Positions 8,465 through 53,617 of a stretch of 53,754 nt of DNA are shown piece by piece. Each line of letters opens with the position of its first letter. Within the stretch, counting starts at the first letter, position 1. The stretch covers positions 1 to 53,754 of the forward strand of contig NZ_JAHLYS010000043.1 of assembly GCF_025128055.1 (NCBI RefSeq). The letters run 5' to 3'. A program made the translations under genes and the position numbers. Below the pieces are notes generated by a model. It was given only the letters and a program-made list of their open reading frames with translations. It did no database searches and was not told the origin of the DNA. Source of the DNA: Synechococcus sp. CS-1329 (GTDB taxonomy: Bacteria > Cyanobacteriota > Cyanobacteriia > PCC-6307 > Cyanobiaceae).

Positions 8465-9235
8465 CTACGGGGAACCGAAGGGACGGCCCACGGCAACGCG
8501 GGCCGCTTCCTCAGCTGATTGCATCGCCAGTGCCAGCCGCTCATTGAGGGCGCGAACCGCGGCGCGACCGCCTTCTCCTCCCACCCTCAAGGCAGGAGCA
8601 AAAGCCAGCGCGGCCCGGCCCCGGCAGCGCGGGGGGGCATGGCTGTAGCCGAGTCCCACCGGAACGACCCGCACGTCCACCCCCTGGCTGGCGGCCAGCA
8701 CCGCCAGCCGCCCCAGGCCCTGGTGCAGGCGGATCGCTTCGTCCTGGCGGCGGATCTGACCTTCGGGAAACACGACCAACTGCTGCGAGGCGGCCAGCAG
8801 ATCAACGGCGTAGCGCAGGGAGCTGGTGCCCGGCCGGCCCTGATCAATCGGGAAGCAGCCCAGGCGATCAAGGAACCAGCCCTGCAGTCCCCTCATCTCC
8901 GTGACGGTCACCATGAAGCGGCAATCGCGGCCACTGACCCGGCGGCCGGCGGCATGGGGCAGCAGCAGCGCATCCCAGCGAGCCCGATGGGTGGGGGCCA
9001 GCAGCACCGGACCCTCCAGGGGCAGGTGCTCGGATCCCAGCACCTCAATCGAGCTGAAGAATCCCTGCAGGGCGATGTCCTGGGTCACCAGCATCGCCAG
9101 CGGCGACAGCAACGGACTGATGCCCCGGCAGACGCTGCTCTCCCGGGCCACCAGGCTGGAGCCGCGCTTCGGATCAGGGCGCCTGGGCTCGGTCTTCGCT
9201 GGTCCCTCGATCACTTCCGTCGTCTCGGCCGTCAC
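8465..9235 (-). CDS. PlsC-like 1-acyl-sn-glycerol-3-phosphate acyltransferase
   Basis: The 256-residue protein has the acyltransferase HX4D box (THRARWD) and the glycerophosphate-binding FPEGQIRRQDEAIRL block, then VPVGLGYS. The family transfers an acyl chain to lysophosphatidate at the membrane in phospholipid and glycolipid synthesis. The first 30 residues are charged and variable and could be partly outside the true start. A second PlsC paralogue usually exists in cyanobacteria, so the exact substrate is left open. Confidence 0.88.
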   Translation of the reverse strand: MTAETTEVIEGPAKTEPRRPDPKRGSSLVARESSVCRGISPLLSPLAMLVTQDIALQGFFSSIEVLGSEHLPLEGPVLLAPTHRARWDALLLPHAAGRRVSGRDCRFMVTVTEMRGLQGWFLDRLGCFPIDQGRPGTSSLRYAVDLLAASQQLVVFPEGQIRRQDEAIRLHQGLGRLAVLAASQGVDVRVVPVGLGYSHAPPRCRGRAALAFAPALRVGGEGGRAAVRALNERLALAMQSAEEAARVAVGRPFGSP

Positions 9236-41832: not shown

Positions 41833-43485
41833 CTAGGAGTTTGTTCCCAGGCCCCGTTCCGGCTCAGCTCCACACCAGGCGATGCCGGCCAGCTGCGCCA
41901 GGTCTCGATGCCAGCTGGTCAGGTCGTTTCTGTTGAAGCCCTGGAGCGTGGTGTGGCCGCAGGCACGGGCCATGACCTGCATCAGCGCCACCGTGGCCTC
42001 GAAGAAACGGGCCAGGCGATCGGCGGCATGGTCGATGTTCAGTTTCCGCCGAAGCTCCGCATCCTGGGTGGCGATACCGGCCGGACAGTTGTTCGTGTGA
42101 CAGAGGCGGGCACCGACGCAGCCGATCGCCTGGATCGAGGCATTCGCCAGGGCGATCCCATCGGCGCCCAGGGCCATGGCCTTGATGCAATCGGCGGGGG
42201 TGCGAAGACCACCCGTGATGATCAGGGTCACCCGGCCGCTGGCCTCGCGGCGGTCCAGGTGGCGGCGTGCCCGTGCCAGGGCAGGAATGGTGGGAACCGA
42301 GATGTGATCGCGGAACAGCAGGGGCGCCGCCCCCGTGCCGCCACCCCGTCCATCGAGAATGATGTAATCGGCTCCGGCGTCGATGGCGAAATCCAGATCA
42401 GCTTCGATGTGCTGGGCGCTGATCTTGAAGCCCACGGGGATCCCGCCACTGATCTCCCGCACGTGGTCTGCGAACCGCCGGAAATCATCAACCGTGCTCA
42501 AGTCCGTGAAGGTGGACGGCGAGATCACGGGCTCGCCCACAGAAACACCGCGCAACGCCGCAATCCGAGCCGTGGTCTTGATGCCGGGGAAGTGACCCCC
42601 GGCTCCGGTCTTAGCCGCCTGCCCACCCTTGAAGTGGAACGCCTGAACCTGCTGGAGCAGCTCGGGGCGGTAGCCGAATCGCCCGGGGGCCAGCTCATAG
42701 AGATAGCGGCTGTTGGCCGCCTGCTCCTCGGGCAGCAGGCCCCCCTCCCCGGAGCAGATGCCGGTTCCGGCCTGTTCGGCCCCGCGGGCCAGGGCCAGCT
42801 TCGCTTCTTCAGAGAGGGCTCCGAAACTCATGTCGGACACGAAGATCGGAATCCGCAGGCGGAGGGGCCTGGCCGCCTGCGGGCCCAGCACCAGTTCCGT
42901 GGCCACCGCTGCATCGTCCGGGAGGGGTTGGCGGGCCAGCTGGGCCACCAGAATCTGGAGATGATCCCAGCTGGGCAATTCGCTGCGCGGAACTCCCATC
43001 GCCGCGATGGGTCCATGGGGGCCCAGCTGATCCAGCCCATGCTCAGCGAGTTCATGGATGAGGCTGAGCGTGGGCTCTTCCGCCGTGGGACGCGGTTCCG
43101 GCATCGGTGCCCGCTCAGGCTCCTGTTGTTGCTCAGGCCCCGTCGGGCCTGGTTCCTCAGGTTCGTCTGAAACCTCTGAATCATCTGAATCCTGAGGCGA
43201 TTCGGACTCCCGGGCGAGTGAAAAGCTTTGCCCCACCCGCTCACCTGGAACCTGGGCATGGCTGCCATCGCAATAAGGGGGAGTCCCCGTCTGCTTGCAG
43301 CGGCAGAGCCAGGCTTCCCCATCGGAGTCGGCCGTGAAGGTCTGGGGCGTGAACCCACTGCCCCGGTGGGAGCCGTCGCAGAAGGGTTGATCCTTGGAGC
43401 GGCCGCAGCTGCAATAGAGGTAGGCCTTTCCCTGCTTCAGTTCAACGGCAATGGGTTCGTTGGCGGCCACGATCGGCTTGTCCAT
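41833..43485 (-). CDS. Double CDGSH iron-sulfur module fused to a glutamate-synthase FMN domain
   Basis: The 550-residue protein carries two CDGSH-type [2Fe-2S] motifs: C25-S-C27 with C36DGSH40, and C61-R-C63 with C72DGSH76. An acidic Ser/Glu/Pro linker (about residues 90-145) follows, then the synthase domain of glutamate synthase. That domain shows SDMSFGALSEEAKLAL, GIKTTARIAAL, DYIILDGRGGGTGAAP, IITGGLRTPADCIKAM and GARLCHTNNCPAG, with Cys for a 3Fe-4S cluster. The glutaminase and GXGXG domains of full GOGAT are absent, so it cannot use glutamine alone. The CDGSH part could deliver electrons. ATG 43485 is preferred; GTG at 43518 would add 11 residues. Confidence 0.9.
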   Translation of the reverse strand: MDKPIVAANEPIAVELKQGKAYLYCSCGRSKDQPFCDGSHRGSGFTPQTFTADSDGEAWLCRCKQTGTPPYCDGSHAQVPGERVGQSFSLARESESPQDSDDSEVSDEPEEPGPTGPEQQQEPERAPMPEPRPTAEEPTLSLIHELAEHGLDQLGPHGPIAAMGVPRSELPSWDHLQILVAQLARQPLPDDAAVATELVLGPQAARPLRLRIPIFVSDMSFGALSEEAKLALARGAEQAGTGICSGEGGLLPEEQAANSRYLYELAPGRFGYRPELLQQVQAFHFKGGQAAKTGAGGHFPGIKTTARIAALRGVSVGEPVISPSTFTDLSTVDDFRRFADHVREISGGIPVGFKISAQHIEADLDFAIDAGADYIILDGRGGGTGAAPLLFRDHISVPTIPALARARRHLDRREASGRVTLIITGGLRTPADCIKAMALGADGIALANASIQAIGCVGARLCHTNNCPAGIATQDAELRRKLNIDHAADRLARFFEATVALMQVMARACGHTTLQGFNRNDLTSWHRDLAQLAGIAWCGAEPERGLGTNS

Positions 43486-43572
43486 CAAAAGCCTCTGCAG
43501 GGGGGGACGGGGGACCACTCTGATCGCAGGATGAAGATTTCAAACGTGGAGAGTGGAGATTGCGGGGCTGAT

Positions 43573-49541: not shown

Positions 49542-49814
49542 ATGGCAGCAGACGATTCCATCCACCAGTTCGTGGAGTGCCTGCGCAGCGACGAAGATCT
49601 GCAACGCAGCATCAAATTGGCCACTAGTGCCGATGAGGTGGTTGAGGCGGCTGCCTCCAGGGGCATCGAGTTCTCGAGCGCTTCGCTGGTGAGGTGCTTC
49701 GCCCGCACTCTGATGGAAGGATCCGATGAGGCTGTGGTGAAGAAGTTCGACGAACTGGGCTGGGATGCCGGCGAAATCCTCTGGTTTCTCAAATCACTCG
49801 GATCAGGATCCTGA
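49542..49814 (+). CDS. Nif11-domain protein
   Basis: The 90-residue protein begins DSIHQFVECLRSDEDLQRSIKLATSADEVVEAAASRGIEFSSASL, a clear Nif11 pattern (FxxxxxxDxxLqxxL ... AxxxxVVxxAxxxGxxFS). It continues with a helical FARTLMEGSDEAVVKKFDELGWDAGEILWFLKSLGSGS. No Gly-Gly cleavage motif or Cys/Ser-rich core is present, so a RiPP precursor is unlikely; function unknown. AGGAG lies 5 nt before ATG, and TATTAA at 49519-49524 is -10-like. CTGAG-CA-CTCAG (49525-49536) abuts the ribosome-binding site. Confidence 0.82.
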   Translation: MAADDSIHQFVECLRSDEDLQRSIKLATSADEVVEAAASRGIEFSSASLVRCFARTLMEGSDEAVVKKFDELGWDAGEILWFLKSLGSGS

Positions 49815-49840: not shown

Positions 49841-52800
49841 TCAGTGTGCTCGGGCTGCGGCCCCAGGCTCGCTGACGCCTTCCCGCTGGTTGCTCCGGCG
49901 GATCCTTCGCGCCAACTCGCGAATCACCCCTCGGACGATCTCCGGTTGATCCGTCATCAGATCCAGCAGTGTTTCCTGCTCGATGCGGAACAGGCGGCTG
50001 GGCACAAGCGCGCTCACCGAGGCCGAGCGGGGCTCAGGATCCAGCGCCGCCAACTCGCCGACGATCTCCCGTTCGCCCAGCTCCACGATGGTCTGGTCGT
50101 CGATGTGAACGCGCATGCGTCCCTCCACGATCACGTACATCGCCGTGCCGATGTCGCCAAGGCTGAACAGGGTGTCCCCAGCCGCCAAGCACACCTCATC
50201 GATGGCCTGGGCCAGTTGCACGAGCACATCACTGGGCGTGGACGAGAAGATTCCTACCGACGTGAGCAGCAGCACCTTCTCGATCGTCAGAGATGTCTTG
50301 GTCATGACGGCAAAGCCTGAATTCGGGAGAAGGGATCGGGCGGTGTAGCGAGCGGTCTCCGCCACCACCGGATTGGCCGAAGTTTGCGCCACCGCGATGG
50401 CCTCTAGGACCCGATCATTGGAGTGGACCGCCTGCGGATGGAACGCCAGGCTGTAGAGGGCGCAGGTCAGCAACCAACCGTCGCCGGGGAGCCCATGGCC
50501 ACCTCCCATGATCGCCAGCAACCAGCCGCACGACTCCGGCGACACGGTGGGACGGTACTTCTCGTGCAGCAGGGCCAGGGCCTCCGCGGGTGAGTGCCGA
50601 TCCAGCAAGGGCATGGTGGGGTCCAGATGCTGTCGAGGGATCGTCGACTCCAGCAGTTCCAGGGCCAAGGCCTGCTCCCGCGTCGAGCCGGTCCAGTAGC
50701 GCAGTCTCACCTGGCGGAGGGCACGACCGGGATGCAGGAAGCTCAACAGCAGCAGCAACCTCTGGCGAACACGATCCAGCTCCTGGCCGAAGGCCGAGGA
50801 CAGCACTGGATGCAGCGGTCGCTCCTCGAGATCCGCCAGGGCCGCCAGCAACCAGGCGCCGAAGCGCACCTCCTCCTGCAGGCGACCCTCCACCAGCCGC
50901 CGCTCTGGCTGAGCGACCTGATAGCCCGAGGTGGCCAGGGCAGCCAGGGCCGCATGACGCAGCGCCGGATCCCGCTCCGCCATCCGTTGCACCAGCACCG
51001 ACCAGGCGCCGGGGTGGCGGAACCGCCCCAGCACCCCGAGGATCAGCTTCTCCGTCCCGCTTCCGGGGGGAAGGGTTTGGAGTTCCTCGATCAGCCGCGC
51101 TAACCCTTCCTCCCCGGCCGCCAGCAGGGCCCGGGTCGCGGCGCCACGGCATCCCGGATCGCCGAGCAGATCGATCACGTGGGGCAGCAGGCGGCGGTTG
51201 ATCAGCGTTGCCGCGGCCTCGAGCGCCGCCGTGCGCACCCTGCGGTCCGGATCGTTCAGCAGCGTGACCAGGGGGCGGTAGAGATTTCCGCCGCCCACGT
51301 CCGCCAGCACCCGCGCGGCCTGGACACGGCAGAGGGGATCGACGCTCTGCAGGAGGTCGTTGAGGGCTCGGGCCGCGAGCAGCAGCCCCTCCAGGCTTCC
51401 GTGTCGCAGCAGACCGACGATCATCCCCGTGCGCTCCGGAGCCGAACGGCCGGCCAGAATCGAGCCATAGACCTCGAGAATCCGCTCTTCGTCGTGGGCT
51501 GCCAGCACCCGCAGCGCCGCTCCGCGCACCTCGCCATCGGAATCCGAGTTGGCCAGACGCTCGATCAGCTCGATGGGGGCGTCATCGCTGGCTTCCTCCA
51601 GCCTCACAAGAACCGCATGGCGCACTTCCGCCGCCGGATGGAGCAGCAGGCTGTCGGCGCGCTCGATGATGAACTCCGGGTCCGAATGGCCCAGCTGCTC
51701 GATGGCCTGGAGCACCGAAGCAGCTGAGGGCCACTGGAGGGCCTTGATCAGCACATCCCGGCTGGCTGGCTCCTGGATCGACACCAAGCCCCCGGCCAGG
51801 CTGCGCCCCTGTAACGCCCCGGCCAGCACCAGCGGATACTGCTGGCGCAGCAGCTGGGCCAGCAGCAACCAGAGCAGCAGCAGGCCCAGCATCAGAGCTG
51901 GCAGAACCCCCAGCTGGTTCGGCCAGATCCGGCCGATGGCCAGCAGCAGCAAACCGGCCAGTCCAGCCCCCAGGGGACTGACGACCCCCTCCGCCAGGGT
52001 CTGGACCCGCACCCGTTGCAGCGCCCCGAGGGGTTGAAACAGCAGCAGGACTGCGGAGCGATCGATCGACAGGCGCAGGGAGCGATCGAAGAATTTCGTC
52101 CCCACGATCGCCGGGAACAGCAAGGCACCCGGAAGCGCCCCCAGGGCGGATCCGACAGCTACCAGTACTGCCGAGCCGAGGCTGGCCGGCAGGATCGTCA
52201 GGCCGCCCCCGAGGCCGAAGCGGGCGAGCCATGGAGCCGTGACTCCGCCGCGAAGCACCAGGGTGGCCACACCCGCGCAGGCGTAGAACACCCCGAGAAA
52301 GGCGGTGAGCTGATTGGCGCTGGTGAAGCGTGAGTGGGCCACCACGAGAAAGCTCTGATCCACGAGATAGCGCATCAGCACCGAGGCCAGAAAGAGGCCG
52401 AACACCAGCGGAACGAAGGGGCTCGGGGCCCGGGTCGCGGCGGATGGCAGGGGCGAATCCACCGAGGGGGTGGCGATGACGTCGGGCTCCGCCGATCGGG
52501 CCTGCCGCTGGATCCAGCCGAGAAGGGGGAGACAGAGGGCGCTGGCACCAGCGGCCAGCAGGATGATGTTGTCGCTGCCGATCCAGGACACCAGCAGCGG
52601 CAGGGTGAAGCCACCGACAACCAGGGCCACCACTTCCCCTGAGCCGATCAGGCCGTACAACCGTTTGGCCTGACGCACGTGGAGCAAGGAGGCCGCCAGG
52701 CCCCAGAACTCCAGATTGAGCAGGATCTCGGCCAGCCGGTACCAGACCAGCAGGGCAAAGGCCGCCGTGGCCTGATCCCCCCAGGCCAGAAGCCAGCGCA

Positions 52801-53098
52801 GCGCCAGCGGCACCAGGGTCACCACCAGAAGCTGCAGGCGCCAAGTACGGCGCTGGGAGAGCCGCCGCCCCAGACTCAGCACGGCGGCGCTGCTGAGCGG
52901 CCCGACCACCGCCACCGCCAAGTAGACGTAGGCGAGGCCGGAGGGGCCGACCGTGGAGACGAACAGGGCATTCGCCGCGGAGAGCGTGAAGATCAGCACC
53001 GCCCCCACCAGCAGGGAGTGCAGCAGAAGCCCAGCCACCAGGGCTCGCTCTCCCGGCCGCAGATCAAGCCTGGGCTGACCGTGATCCCGCGTCCCCAC
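49841..53098 (-). CDS. Nucleotide-transporter-like membrane protein fused to HEAT repeats and cNMP-binding domain
   Basis: The 1085-residue protein has three parts. Residues about 10-450 are a 10-12 span membrane domain like ADP/ATP translocases of the NTT family (LDLRPGERALVAGLLLHSLLVG, YVYLAVAVVGPL, FWGLAASLLHVRQAKRLYGLIGSGE, VGTKFFDRSLRLSIDR). Residues about 470-830 are HEAT-like repeats (PEFIIERADSLLLHPAAEVRHAVLVRLEEASDD and so on). Residues about 960-1075 are a cyclic-nucleotide-binding domain (GDTLFSLGDIGTAMYVIVEGRMRVH, GELAALDPEPRSASV with the phosphate-binding Glu/Arg). The start is GTG at 53098, or TTG at 53110; the longer frame to 53524 overlaps the zinc-finger gene in another phase and looks random. 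Transported substrate unknown. Confidence 0.88.
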   Translation of the reverse strand: MGTRDHGQPRLDLRPGERALVAGLLLHSLLVGAVLIFTLSAANALFVSTVGPSGLAYVYLAVAVVGPLSSAAVLSLGRRLSQRRTWRLQLLVVTLVPLALRWLLAWGDQATAAFALLVWYRLAEILLNLEFWGLAASLLHVRQAKRLYGLIGSGEVVALVVGGFTLPLLVSWIGSDNIILLAAGASALCLPLLGWIQRQARSAEPDVIATPSVDSPLPSAATRAPSPFVPLVFGLFLASVLMRYLVDQSFLVVAHSRFTSANQLTAFLGVFYACAGVATLVLRGGVTAPWLARFGLGGGLTILPASLGSAVLVAVGSALGALPGALLFPAIVGTKFFDRSLRLSIDRSAVLLLFQPLGALQRVRVQTLAEGVVSPLGAGLAGLLLLAIGRIWPNQLGVLPALMLGLLLLWLLLAQLLRQQYPLVLAGALQGRSLAGGLVSIQEPASRDVLIKALQWPSAASVLQAIEQLGHSDPEFIIERADSLLLHPAAEVRHAVLVRLEEASDDAPIELIERLANSDSDGEVRGAALRVLAAHDEERILEVYGSILAGRSAPERTGMIVGLLRHGSLEGLLLAARALNDLLQSVDPLCRVQAARVLADVGGGNLYRPLVTLLNDPDRRVRTAALEAAATLINRRLLPHVIDLLGDPGCRGAATRALLAAGEEGLARLIEELQTLPPGSGTEKLILGVLGRFRHPGAWSVLVQRMAERDPALRHAALAALATSGYQVAQPERRLVEGRLQEEVRFGAWLLAALADLEERPLHPVLSSAFGQELDRVRQRLLLLLSFLHPGRALRQVRLRYWTGSTREQALALELLESTIPRQHLDPTMPLLDRHSPAEALALLHEKYRPTVSPESCGWLLAIMGGGHGLPGDGWLLTCALYSLAFHPQAVHSNDRVLEAIAVAQTSANPVVAETARYTARSLLPNSGFAVMTKTSLTIEKVLLLTSVGIFSSTPSDVLVQLAQAIDEVCLAAGDTLFSLGDIGTAMYVIVEGRMRVHIDDQTIVELGEREIVGELAALDPEPRSASVSALVPSRLFRIEQETLLDLMTDQPEIVRGVIRELARRIRRSNQREGVSEPGAAARAH

Positions 53099-53123
53099 GA
53101 CCGACGTCAACAGCCGCCGGACC

Positions 53124-53540
53124 CTAGCACCGTCGCCGCTCCCGGCTGGCCCGCGCACGGCAGCGATTGGAGCAGTAGCGGGTATCCCTTCGCCTGGCCA
53201 GGAAGGACTGGCCGCAGCAGACGCAGGCCCGGGCCGACTGCCGCTGCCTTGGCTGGGATGGGAAGCCGCCCACCAGCAGCGACTCCAGCGATCGCACTCC
53301 CTCCGCCAGCACCAGATCAAGGCCATAGCCCTGCCGCAGCAGGCTTTCGCCGTCGGCATAGCCAAGGCCCTCGGCCAGTTCCGGCGCCTCCTGCAGGAAG
53401 CGCTGCAACATCCGCACCAGCGGGTAGCCCTCCCCCCAGAACCAGCGGCGCCGCTGACGCACCAGCTCAGCCCACTGCTCCGGCGGTTGATCACCCAGCC
53501 GGTCGTCGAAGGCGGGCTCGCCATTGCAGCCAGGATCCAT
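53124..53540 (-). CDS. Small protein with C-terminal treble-clef zinc finger
   Basis: From ATG at 53540 (MDPGCNGEPAFDDRL) the protein has 138 residues: helical LVRQRRRWFWGEGYPLVRMLQRFLQEAPELAEGL, then RACVCCGQSFLARRRDTRYCSNRCRARASRERR. The last part has CxxC ... CxxxC with Arg-rich surroundings, the type used by many DNA- or RNA-binding zinc fingers. It ends 25 nt before the GTG of the transporter-fusion gene and is probably cotranscribed with it. A TTG at 53549 is an alternative start. Not a transposase. Confidence 0.75.
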   Translation of the reverse strand: MDPGCNGEPAFDDRLGDQPPEQWAELVRQRRRWFWGEGYPLVRMLQRFLQEAPELAEGLGYADGESLLRQGYGLDLVLAEGVRSLESLLVGGFPSQPRQRQSARACVCCGQSFLARRRDTRYCSNRCRARASRERRRC

Positions 53541-53617
53541 TGGCCTCAACGTTCGAACGCCGTGGCAGGCAGCCTATGGGTTGTGGCGATCACAACCCAG
53601 CCCTAACCCCGCATTAA

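Follow-up and report, generated by a model that had tools for sequence, protein, structure and literature searches.

A nucleotide-transporter-like protein with HEAT repeats and a cyclic-nucleotide sensor in Synechococcus sp. CS-1329: a candidate cAMP-switched carrier

Proteins of the NTT (nucleotide transporter) kind are taken as a sign of energy parasitism or of plastids. What, then, might such a protein do in Synechococcus sp. CS-1329, a free-living phototroph in which one gene joins an NTT-like membrane domain to a HEAT-repeat solenoid and a C-terminal cyclic-nucleotide-binding domain (cNBD)? The gene lies near the end of the 53,754-nucleotide stretch analysed here (the window), which is the whole of contig C43 (NZ_JAHLYS010000043.1) of the strain's genome (G000). 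Its architecture is real, conserved and already known, and is found here in a lineage where it is rare. Our answer as to its role is a tentative one: this member of the NTT-HEAT-cNBD kind may well be a carrier of the MFS fold that is switched by a cyclic nucleotide, most likely cAMP, and its substrate is probably something other than exchanged ATP and ADP.

Three domains in one open frame

The minus-strand frame between 49841 and 53098 encodes 1085 amino acids plus a stop and is free of interruptions. A mechanically called open reading frame (ORF) of 1227 amino acids, which extends to 53524, was rejected: it overlaps a zinc-finger-like ORF lying upstream in a different frame, the in-frame starts past the stop of that ORF are TTG at 53110 and GTG at 53098, and in the 96%-identical gene of Synechococcus sp. 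RedBA-s the frame closes a few codons upstream of the start. The gene and its parts are as follows.

49841..53098, minus strand: NTT-HEAT-cNBD gene, 1085 amino acids; start GTG at 53098, TTG at 53110 possible (open frame, Pfam matches, relatives, dN/dS 0.23)
51824..53065, minus strand: NTT/MFS-fold membrane domain, residues 12-425 (PF03219; profile match to AtNTT1 9j3j, E 1.9e-19; model pTM 0.74)
50324..51781, minus strand: HEAT-repeat solenoid, residues ~440-925 (PF13646, four stretches; helical repeats in the model)
49874..50296, minus strand: cyclic-nucleotide-binding domain, residues ~935-1075 (PF00027, 61.5 bits)
50024..50059, minus strand: phosphate-binding cassette GELAALDPEPRS with Glu1015 and Arg1024 (Glu and Arg in 25/25 related cNBDs)

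All three domains named in a preliminary description of this locus score above their curated Pfam cut-offs: PF03219 (TLC/NTT) with 26.4 bits against a cut-off of 21, over residues 115-169 only (55 residues); PF13646 (HEAT_2) with 59.6 bits in its four stretches; and PF00027 (cNMP_binding) over residues 971-1049. The HEAT repeats and the cNBD share one frame behind the NTT domain. That description had also allowed for a frameshift separating the domains into distinct genes, which was rejected since the window frame is open and five picocyanobacterial relatives have the same fused frame. These are the Synechococcus strains RedBA-s (G006), 1G10 (G002), Cruz-7E5 (G003), Tobar12-5m-g (G078) and J7-Johnson (G001), the only five that a scan of genome contigs for picocyanobacterial relatives yielded. 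Tobar12-5m-g is listed among freshwater strains in PMC9361551.

The gene is under purifying selection across its domains. Between the window and RedBA-s, dN/dS is 0.23 overall, 0.23 in the NTT part, 0.31 in the HEAT part and 0 in the cNBD, where no amino-acid change is found over 141 codons at a dS of 0.12. The G+C content of the gene (0.683) is close to that of the window (0.672), a composition by which a recent import was rejected and with which an old transfer is compatible.

A profile built from 14 NTT domains was run against the PDB. Besides AtNTT1, it matched Chlamydia pneumoniae NTT1 (CpNTT1; 9j3n, E 5.3e-15), the sole further match being a protein of a different kind at E 1.8. AlphaFold, given the six picocyanobacterial sequences, returned a pLDDT of 63.8 and a pTM of 0.40 for the full protein and a pLDDT of 70.9 for the membrane domain alone, in which 11 helical elements are seen, one of them long enough for two spans. 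Foldseek aligned this NTT-domain model with AtNTT1 9j3m at E 6.9e-9 and TM 0.71. With VIA, its best match was again AtNTT1 (Z 33.3 over 395 aligned residues), versus Z 22.7 for the best non-NTT chain. Structural comparison, proposed at the outset as a test of the NTT assignment, thus found the spans to match NTT structures better than any other transporter fold, and another fold was rejected. On the basis of these models, we take the membrane domain to have the NTT fold, as first described. The HEAT part is modelled as helical repeats, for which Foldseek finds alphaRep, importin-type and PP2A-A chains. With the plastid and chlamydial translocators (AtNTT1, 9j3j/9j3l/9j3m; CpNTT1, 9j3n/9j3o; families PF03219 and TIGR00769) the fold is shared nearly throughout the membrane domain; the window protein differs from them by its added HEAT and cNBD parts and by a TIGR00769 (NTP/NDP exchange) score of 28.1 bits, far under the cut-off of 387.2.

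Substrate residues of the membrane domain

Work on AtNTT1 links K155 to the binding of ADP, K527 to that of ATP and E245 to translocation (PMC3306366). Together with E385, these residues are strongly conserved in bacteria and in most microsporidian NTTs (PMC4256464). The corresponding positions were followed in an alignment of 74 proteins, six of which are picocyanobacterial, counting that of the window. With the PDB chain numbering of AtNTT1 shifted by 84, K155, E385 and K527 fall on K, E and K in the printed letters. E245, which falls just before the printed AtNTT1 stretch, was placed through the CpNTT1 letters A-E-L-W; K155 was mapped by hand, as the automatic pairwise alignment did not place it.

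None of the 74 proteins has a lysine at the K527 position, which is Ala378 in the window protein. The E245 position is never glutamate: R stands there in 65, Q in 2 and W in 1 of the 68 other proteins, and L in all six picocyanobacterial ones (Leu117 in the window). At the hand-mapped K155 position (Ala61) lysine is found in 0/74, and the six picocyanobacterial proteins have no K or R within residues 20-47. In contrast to K527 and E245, the acidic E385 position is shared with the plastid and chlamydial translocators, being D or E in 74/74 (Asp247 in the window protein); in the same profile the K527 position is K and the E385 position E in both solved exchangers, AtNTT1 and CpNTT1. Each of the 74 proteins has K/R335 and R146. 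A similar picture was obtained with more distant members. A second fused group (five proteins) has no K527 lysine and has E at the E385 place in 5/5; a Runella protein and eight from other classes of the phylum lack K at the K527 place (five other letters, four gaps) and have D or E at E385 in 8/9.

Given that all 74 proteins lack the K527 lysine and that none has an acid at the E245 position itself, ordinary ATP/ADP exchange by the NTT-HEAT(-cNBD) family is unlikely from the alignment, and a reading of the locus as encoding an ordinary ATP/ADP transporter is not supported. A working pocket for some other solute is plausible: since a different charged set (K/R335, R146 and the acidic residue 247) is conserved instead, that solute may be anionic or phosphorylated.

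The cyclic-nucleotide sensor and the spread of the family

The phosphate-binding Glu and Arg of the window cNBD are retained, as had been noted from the sequence at the outset. The domain shares with CRP/PKA-type cNMP-binding domains (PF00027) a GELAALDPEPRSA cassette containing both residues; unlike in those, it is joined to a HEAT solenoid and a transporter fold, and a Pfam scan of the window protein found no DNA-binding, kinase or channel domain. The 25 cNBDs in which both cassette residues are present comprise picocyanobacterial fused, picocyanobacterial stand-alone and NTT-HEAT-adjacent domains. In the second fused group the pocket Glu is found in 2/3 and the Arg in 3/3.

A possible source of the ligand exists in the same genome, where contig C7 carries one class III cyclase gene (PF00211, 74.7 bits), with residues that we take to be typical of adenylate cyclases. 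Among 60 genomes, a PF00211 cyclase is present in 19/19 with window-type NTT-HEAT versus 18 of the 41 others, two of which have the second fused type; phylogeny and genome size confound this difference.

A stand-alone cNBD gene is kept in 8/9 genomes of the genus, including genomes without NTT-HEAT, and none was found in the CS-1329 genome. Its neighbourhood is conserved (for example L036 7465-8040, L037 6934-7359 and L038 6329-6850), the adjoining gene being presumably DnaJ-like. In a cNBD tree, the stand-alone domains of the genus nest within the fused ones at support values that range from moderate to good (89/79 to 95/98), which suggests that they derive from the fused protein by release of the sensor. 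No weight was given to the positions of the SpoIIE-type and downstream cNBDs of the Cruz-7E5 locus (L032), which sit on very long branches.

The architecture itself is not new. Major, Embley and Williams (2017) reported proteins of the NTT-HEAT and NTT-HEAT-cNBD types from cyanobacteria, chlamydiae and oomycetes, noted the adjacent cNBD gene, and discussed whether the cyanobacterial NTT-HEAT proteins might carry ATP for thylakoids, heterocysts or symbionts; an adjustment of ATP uptake by cAMP was their proposal, untested there (PMC5381601). A 2019 paper repeats the existence of such fusions (PMC6995639). The main text of PMC5381601 has no word starting with residue, lysine or glutamate and no mention of Synechococcus, and no search for partner switching was made in it. 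As far as that text goes, the present additions are the residue argument, the origin suggested for the stand-alone cNBDs and a partner-switching link described below. In the literature searched, also with a contractile-injection link and cNBD partner switching in view, we found no functional work on NTT-HEAT fusions.

The architecture is also common in cyanobacteria. The membrane-domain profile matches 163/291 genomes and 77/131 genera of the class (E at most 1e-10) and, in a phylum sample drawn differently, 57/244 genomes (E at most 1e-20), counts that rest on this profile, the HEAT part having been checked in some matches only. A unique or recent fusion was therefore rejected; the initial suspicion that the architecture might not be unique was borne out, and the surprise first expressed at finding it in a free-living phototroph was not supported. 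Profile hits of about 60.6 bits are no proof of NTT descent, because an Azotobacter plasmid match that looks like an ordinary MFS protein, and was discarded, scores as much. The gene is present in 5/9 genomes of the genus and is rare in the window's family (6/400 genomes, 2/59 genera).

The cNBD is either fused or encoded next door. It is fused in all six picocyanobacterial proteins. From the class-wide matches, 60 loci were drawn, one for each of 60 genera; three end at a contig edge. In 43 of the 57 assessable loci, a same-strand cNBD gene lies downstream, a count that favours short loci in which the cNBD was seen; when at least 1500 bases of downstream room are required, the figure is 37/51. 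Of nine matching places in other classes of the phylum, eight were taken, and in six of these NTT, HEAT and cNBD form one frame; the remaining two are a locus cut by a contig end and one without a clear cNBD.

NTT-HEAT proteins can be aligned across most of residues 12-850, at 22-29% identity. The window protein has the three domains of the fusions of Major et al. in the same order; the six picocyanobacterial fused proteins make up a clade distinct from both the separate-cNBD clade and the second fused group. The tree is unrooted, lacks an outgroup and contains one very long branch (L100), and does not distinguish a single from a double cNBD fusion. Two further copies were seen among the relatives: Cruz-7E5 carries a shortened paralogue (NTT fragment plus cNBD), and RedBA-s retains, next to CorA, what is left of a second NTT-HEAT-cNBD copy (contig C17, L039 ~8490-8873), its intact copy being on a different contig.

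Gene neighbourhoods and competing readings

In 1G10 and Cruz-7E5, the NTT-HEAT-cNBD gene is directly followed on the same strand by genes for STAS, HATPase_c_2 and cNBD-SpoIIE proteins. In the Cruz-7E5 copy (L032), the sole copy scanned, each of the three domains is above its Pfam cut-off, and the genes are under purifying selection (dN/dS 0.03 for STAS, 0.30 for SpoIIE). We take them to be a serine partner-switching set of the RsbU/V/W or SpoIIAA/AB/E type. The pocket Arg of the SpoIIE-linked cNBD is replaced by V. A second lineage shows a similar association. Runella rosea (Bacteroidota, NZ_CP030852.1) has an NTT-HEAT gene that scores 278 bits to the family profile over two domains and whose membrane part finds CpNTT1 as its only PDB match. 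Within a stretch of about 22 kb whose genes share one strand, it is accompanied by two STAS genes, an RsbW-like ATPase, a REC-SpoIIE phosphatase and histidine kinases, interspersed with other genes. No STAS/RsbW-like/SpoIIE set was found beside the window gene, such a set being seen in 2/6 picocyanobacterial loci, and the full set was found in 0/79 other cyanobacterial and 0/8 other-class loci. Isolated matches did occur: a STAS-like one in L152 (E 2e-4) and weak SpoIIE ones in L125 and L097. Where SpoIIE hits in the other cyanobacterial loci were weak, most were discarded as response-regulator matches from the REC domain of the query (6/7 ORFs scanned). One other cyanobacterium has a real MASE1-SpoIIE phosphatase gene about 4 kb from its NTT-HEAT gene (L046 14217-16001), which was taken as background. 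A link seen in two lineages is enough for a hypothesis and short of proof.

A membrane-HEAT-cNBD-like protein was also found on plasmid CP012860.1 of Persicobacter sp. JZB09 (L171 6300-9518). It resembles the NTT-HEAT family in its HEAT part (E 8.5e-32) and weakly in its cNBD; its membrane part is not recognisably NTT. Around it is a contractile injection system locus (L171 966-15649) with sheath, tube, Pvc16_N, AAA and nSTAND1-WD40 genes. In Runella, a gene adjoining the RsbW-like gene (L169 15731-18922) encodes an nSTAND1-WD40 protein with 38% identity over 421 residues to that of Persicobacter.

Two small ORFs flank the window gene:

53124..53549, minus strand: zinc-finger-like ORF (CxxC...YCSNRCR), directly upstream, probably cotranscribed; homologue upstream in 5/6 loci
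49542..49814, plus strand: Nif11-like ORF, convergent neighbour (Nif11 23.7 bits, cut-off 23.8; TIGR03798 29.4 bits, cut-off 32.3)

The zinc-finger-like ORF, which matches neither Pfam nor NCBIfam and is weakly constrained (dN/dS 0.60), is likely part of the NTT-HEAT-cNBD unit, as the preliminary description had suggested it might be. A homologue of the Nif11-like ORF, both of whose family scores fall just under the cut-offs, is close to the gene in 4/6 picocyanobacterial loci; its G+C content is 0.579 (window, 0.672). In all five relatives (G001, G002, G003, G006 and G078), PBP-superfamily and CHAD genes adjoin the NTT-HEAT-cNBD gene, and we presume the former to be PstS-like. Since the relatives have the zinc-finger ORF and then the PstS-like gene, in that order, the window gene is probably followed next by a PstS-like gene that sits at the end of contig C38 (35,997 bases). 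A Na/Pi cotransporter gene lies in the window 1.7 kb past the 3' end of the NTT-HEAT-cNBD gene. Elsewhere in the window, a 561-amino-acid minus-strand ORF (41833-43518) carries a glutamate-synthase-type domain (PF01645) after CDGSH iron-binding zinc-finger stretches.

In the scheme that we tentatively prefer, cAMP would bind the C-terminal cNBD, and the HEAT solenoid would relay the signal, either to the membrane domain or to a partner that the solenoid holds. What the membrane domain would move or sense is a solute that is probably other than exchanged ATP/ADP and perhaps anionic or phosphorylated. The fold, the order of the domains, the K527 loss, the cNBD pocket and the selection are observed; the ligand, the substrate, the direction of movement and the partner are what we infer. 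Several observations weigh against this scheme. With respect to the fold, PF03219 matched 7 and the generic MFS_1 family 5 of the 14 NTT domains scanned, the VIA scores of the NTT structures 9j3j and 9j3o (Z 20.6 and 20.0) are similar to those of other MFS families, and the AlphaFold model, made from six sequences, has low-confidence stretches and a cNBD that is not folded. With respect to the substrate, NTTs are reported in which three of the four key positions are changed and the right residue lies 3-4 positions away (PMC4256464). An acidic residue does stand four residues after the E245 place (position 121) in 66/68 non-picocyanobacterial proteins, and the picocyanobacterial proteins, the window's included, have E124 nearby. 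A lysine occurs somewhere within residues 53-70, around the hand-mapped K155 place, in 1/6 picocyanobacterial and 7/68 other proteins, and K335 is kept in 0/5 proteins of the second fused group. With respect to the switch, the cNBD pocket does not discriminate between cAMP, cGMP and no ligand, and no cNBD gene was found nearby in 14/57 loci, eight of which belong to one family (f32).

Some of these points favour a genuine nucleotide transporter, for ATP/ADP, diphosphates, other nucleotides or NAD, which cAMP would switch in line with the energy state, the proposal of Major et al. (PMC5381601). The NTT fold, whose best matches are AtNTT1 and CpNTT1, the acidic E385 position and the acid past the E245 position all agree with it, and transport of other nucleotides is conceivable because K527 is reported to matter for triphosphates and not for diphosphates (PMC4256464). 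We nevertheless consider this reading decidedly unlikely in view of the missing K527 lysine, the R, Q, W or L at the E245 position, the lack of lysine at the hand-mapped K155 position and the low TIGR00769 score. Loss of the K527 lysine also fits a transceptor or sensor, in which the NTT domain would no longer transport and would sense a ligand or the state of the membrane, the HEAT part signalling to a STAS/RsbW-like/SpoIIE module and cAMP serving as a second input. The genes downstream in 1G10 and Cruz-7E5, with their purifying selection, and the Runella run argue for it. However, 1G10 and Cruz-7E5 are closely related and so amount to a single event, the module is absent beside the window gene and from the 79 other cyanobacterial and 8 other-class loci, the SpoIIE-linked cNBD lacks the pocket Arg, and the charges conserved within the membrane domain favour a working pocket; we rate this possibility as rather unlikely.

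The neighbouring genes point in yet another direction, to a carrier that would handle inorganic phosphate (Pi) or an organic phosphate. The presumed PstS-like and the CHAD neighbours in the five relatives, the probable PstS-like neighbour of the window gene itself and the Na/Pi cotransporter gene would suit such a role, and for NTT1-type carriers an exchange of ADP plus Pi against ATP has been described (PMC3306366). Yet a neighbourhood shared by close relatives may be mere synteny; a PstS-like gene was found by tblastn in only 2/79 other cyanobacterial loci; and only the window, of the loci searched, has an intact Na/Pi gene, an 84-residue match lying beside the degraded RedBA-s copy. A phosphate-related carrier is in our view very improbable.

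A broader proposal, which we regard as unlikely, is that the NTT-HEAT(-cNBD) proteins are a class of membrane receptor built on the NTT fold, with a solute and cAMP as inputs, a HEAT output to serine partner-switching proteins and no energy exchange. If so, a large cyanobacterial family that has been discussed as possible ATP transporters would be a signalling system. If the ATP-binding lysine is missing throughout the cyanobacterial family, proposals of ATP carriage would need another basis, and the name ATP/ADP transporter would mislead. A membrane domain matched in over half of one class sample, combined with a cyclic-nucleotide sensor and, in two lineages, with partner-switching genes, offers a testable handle on cAMP control.

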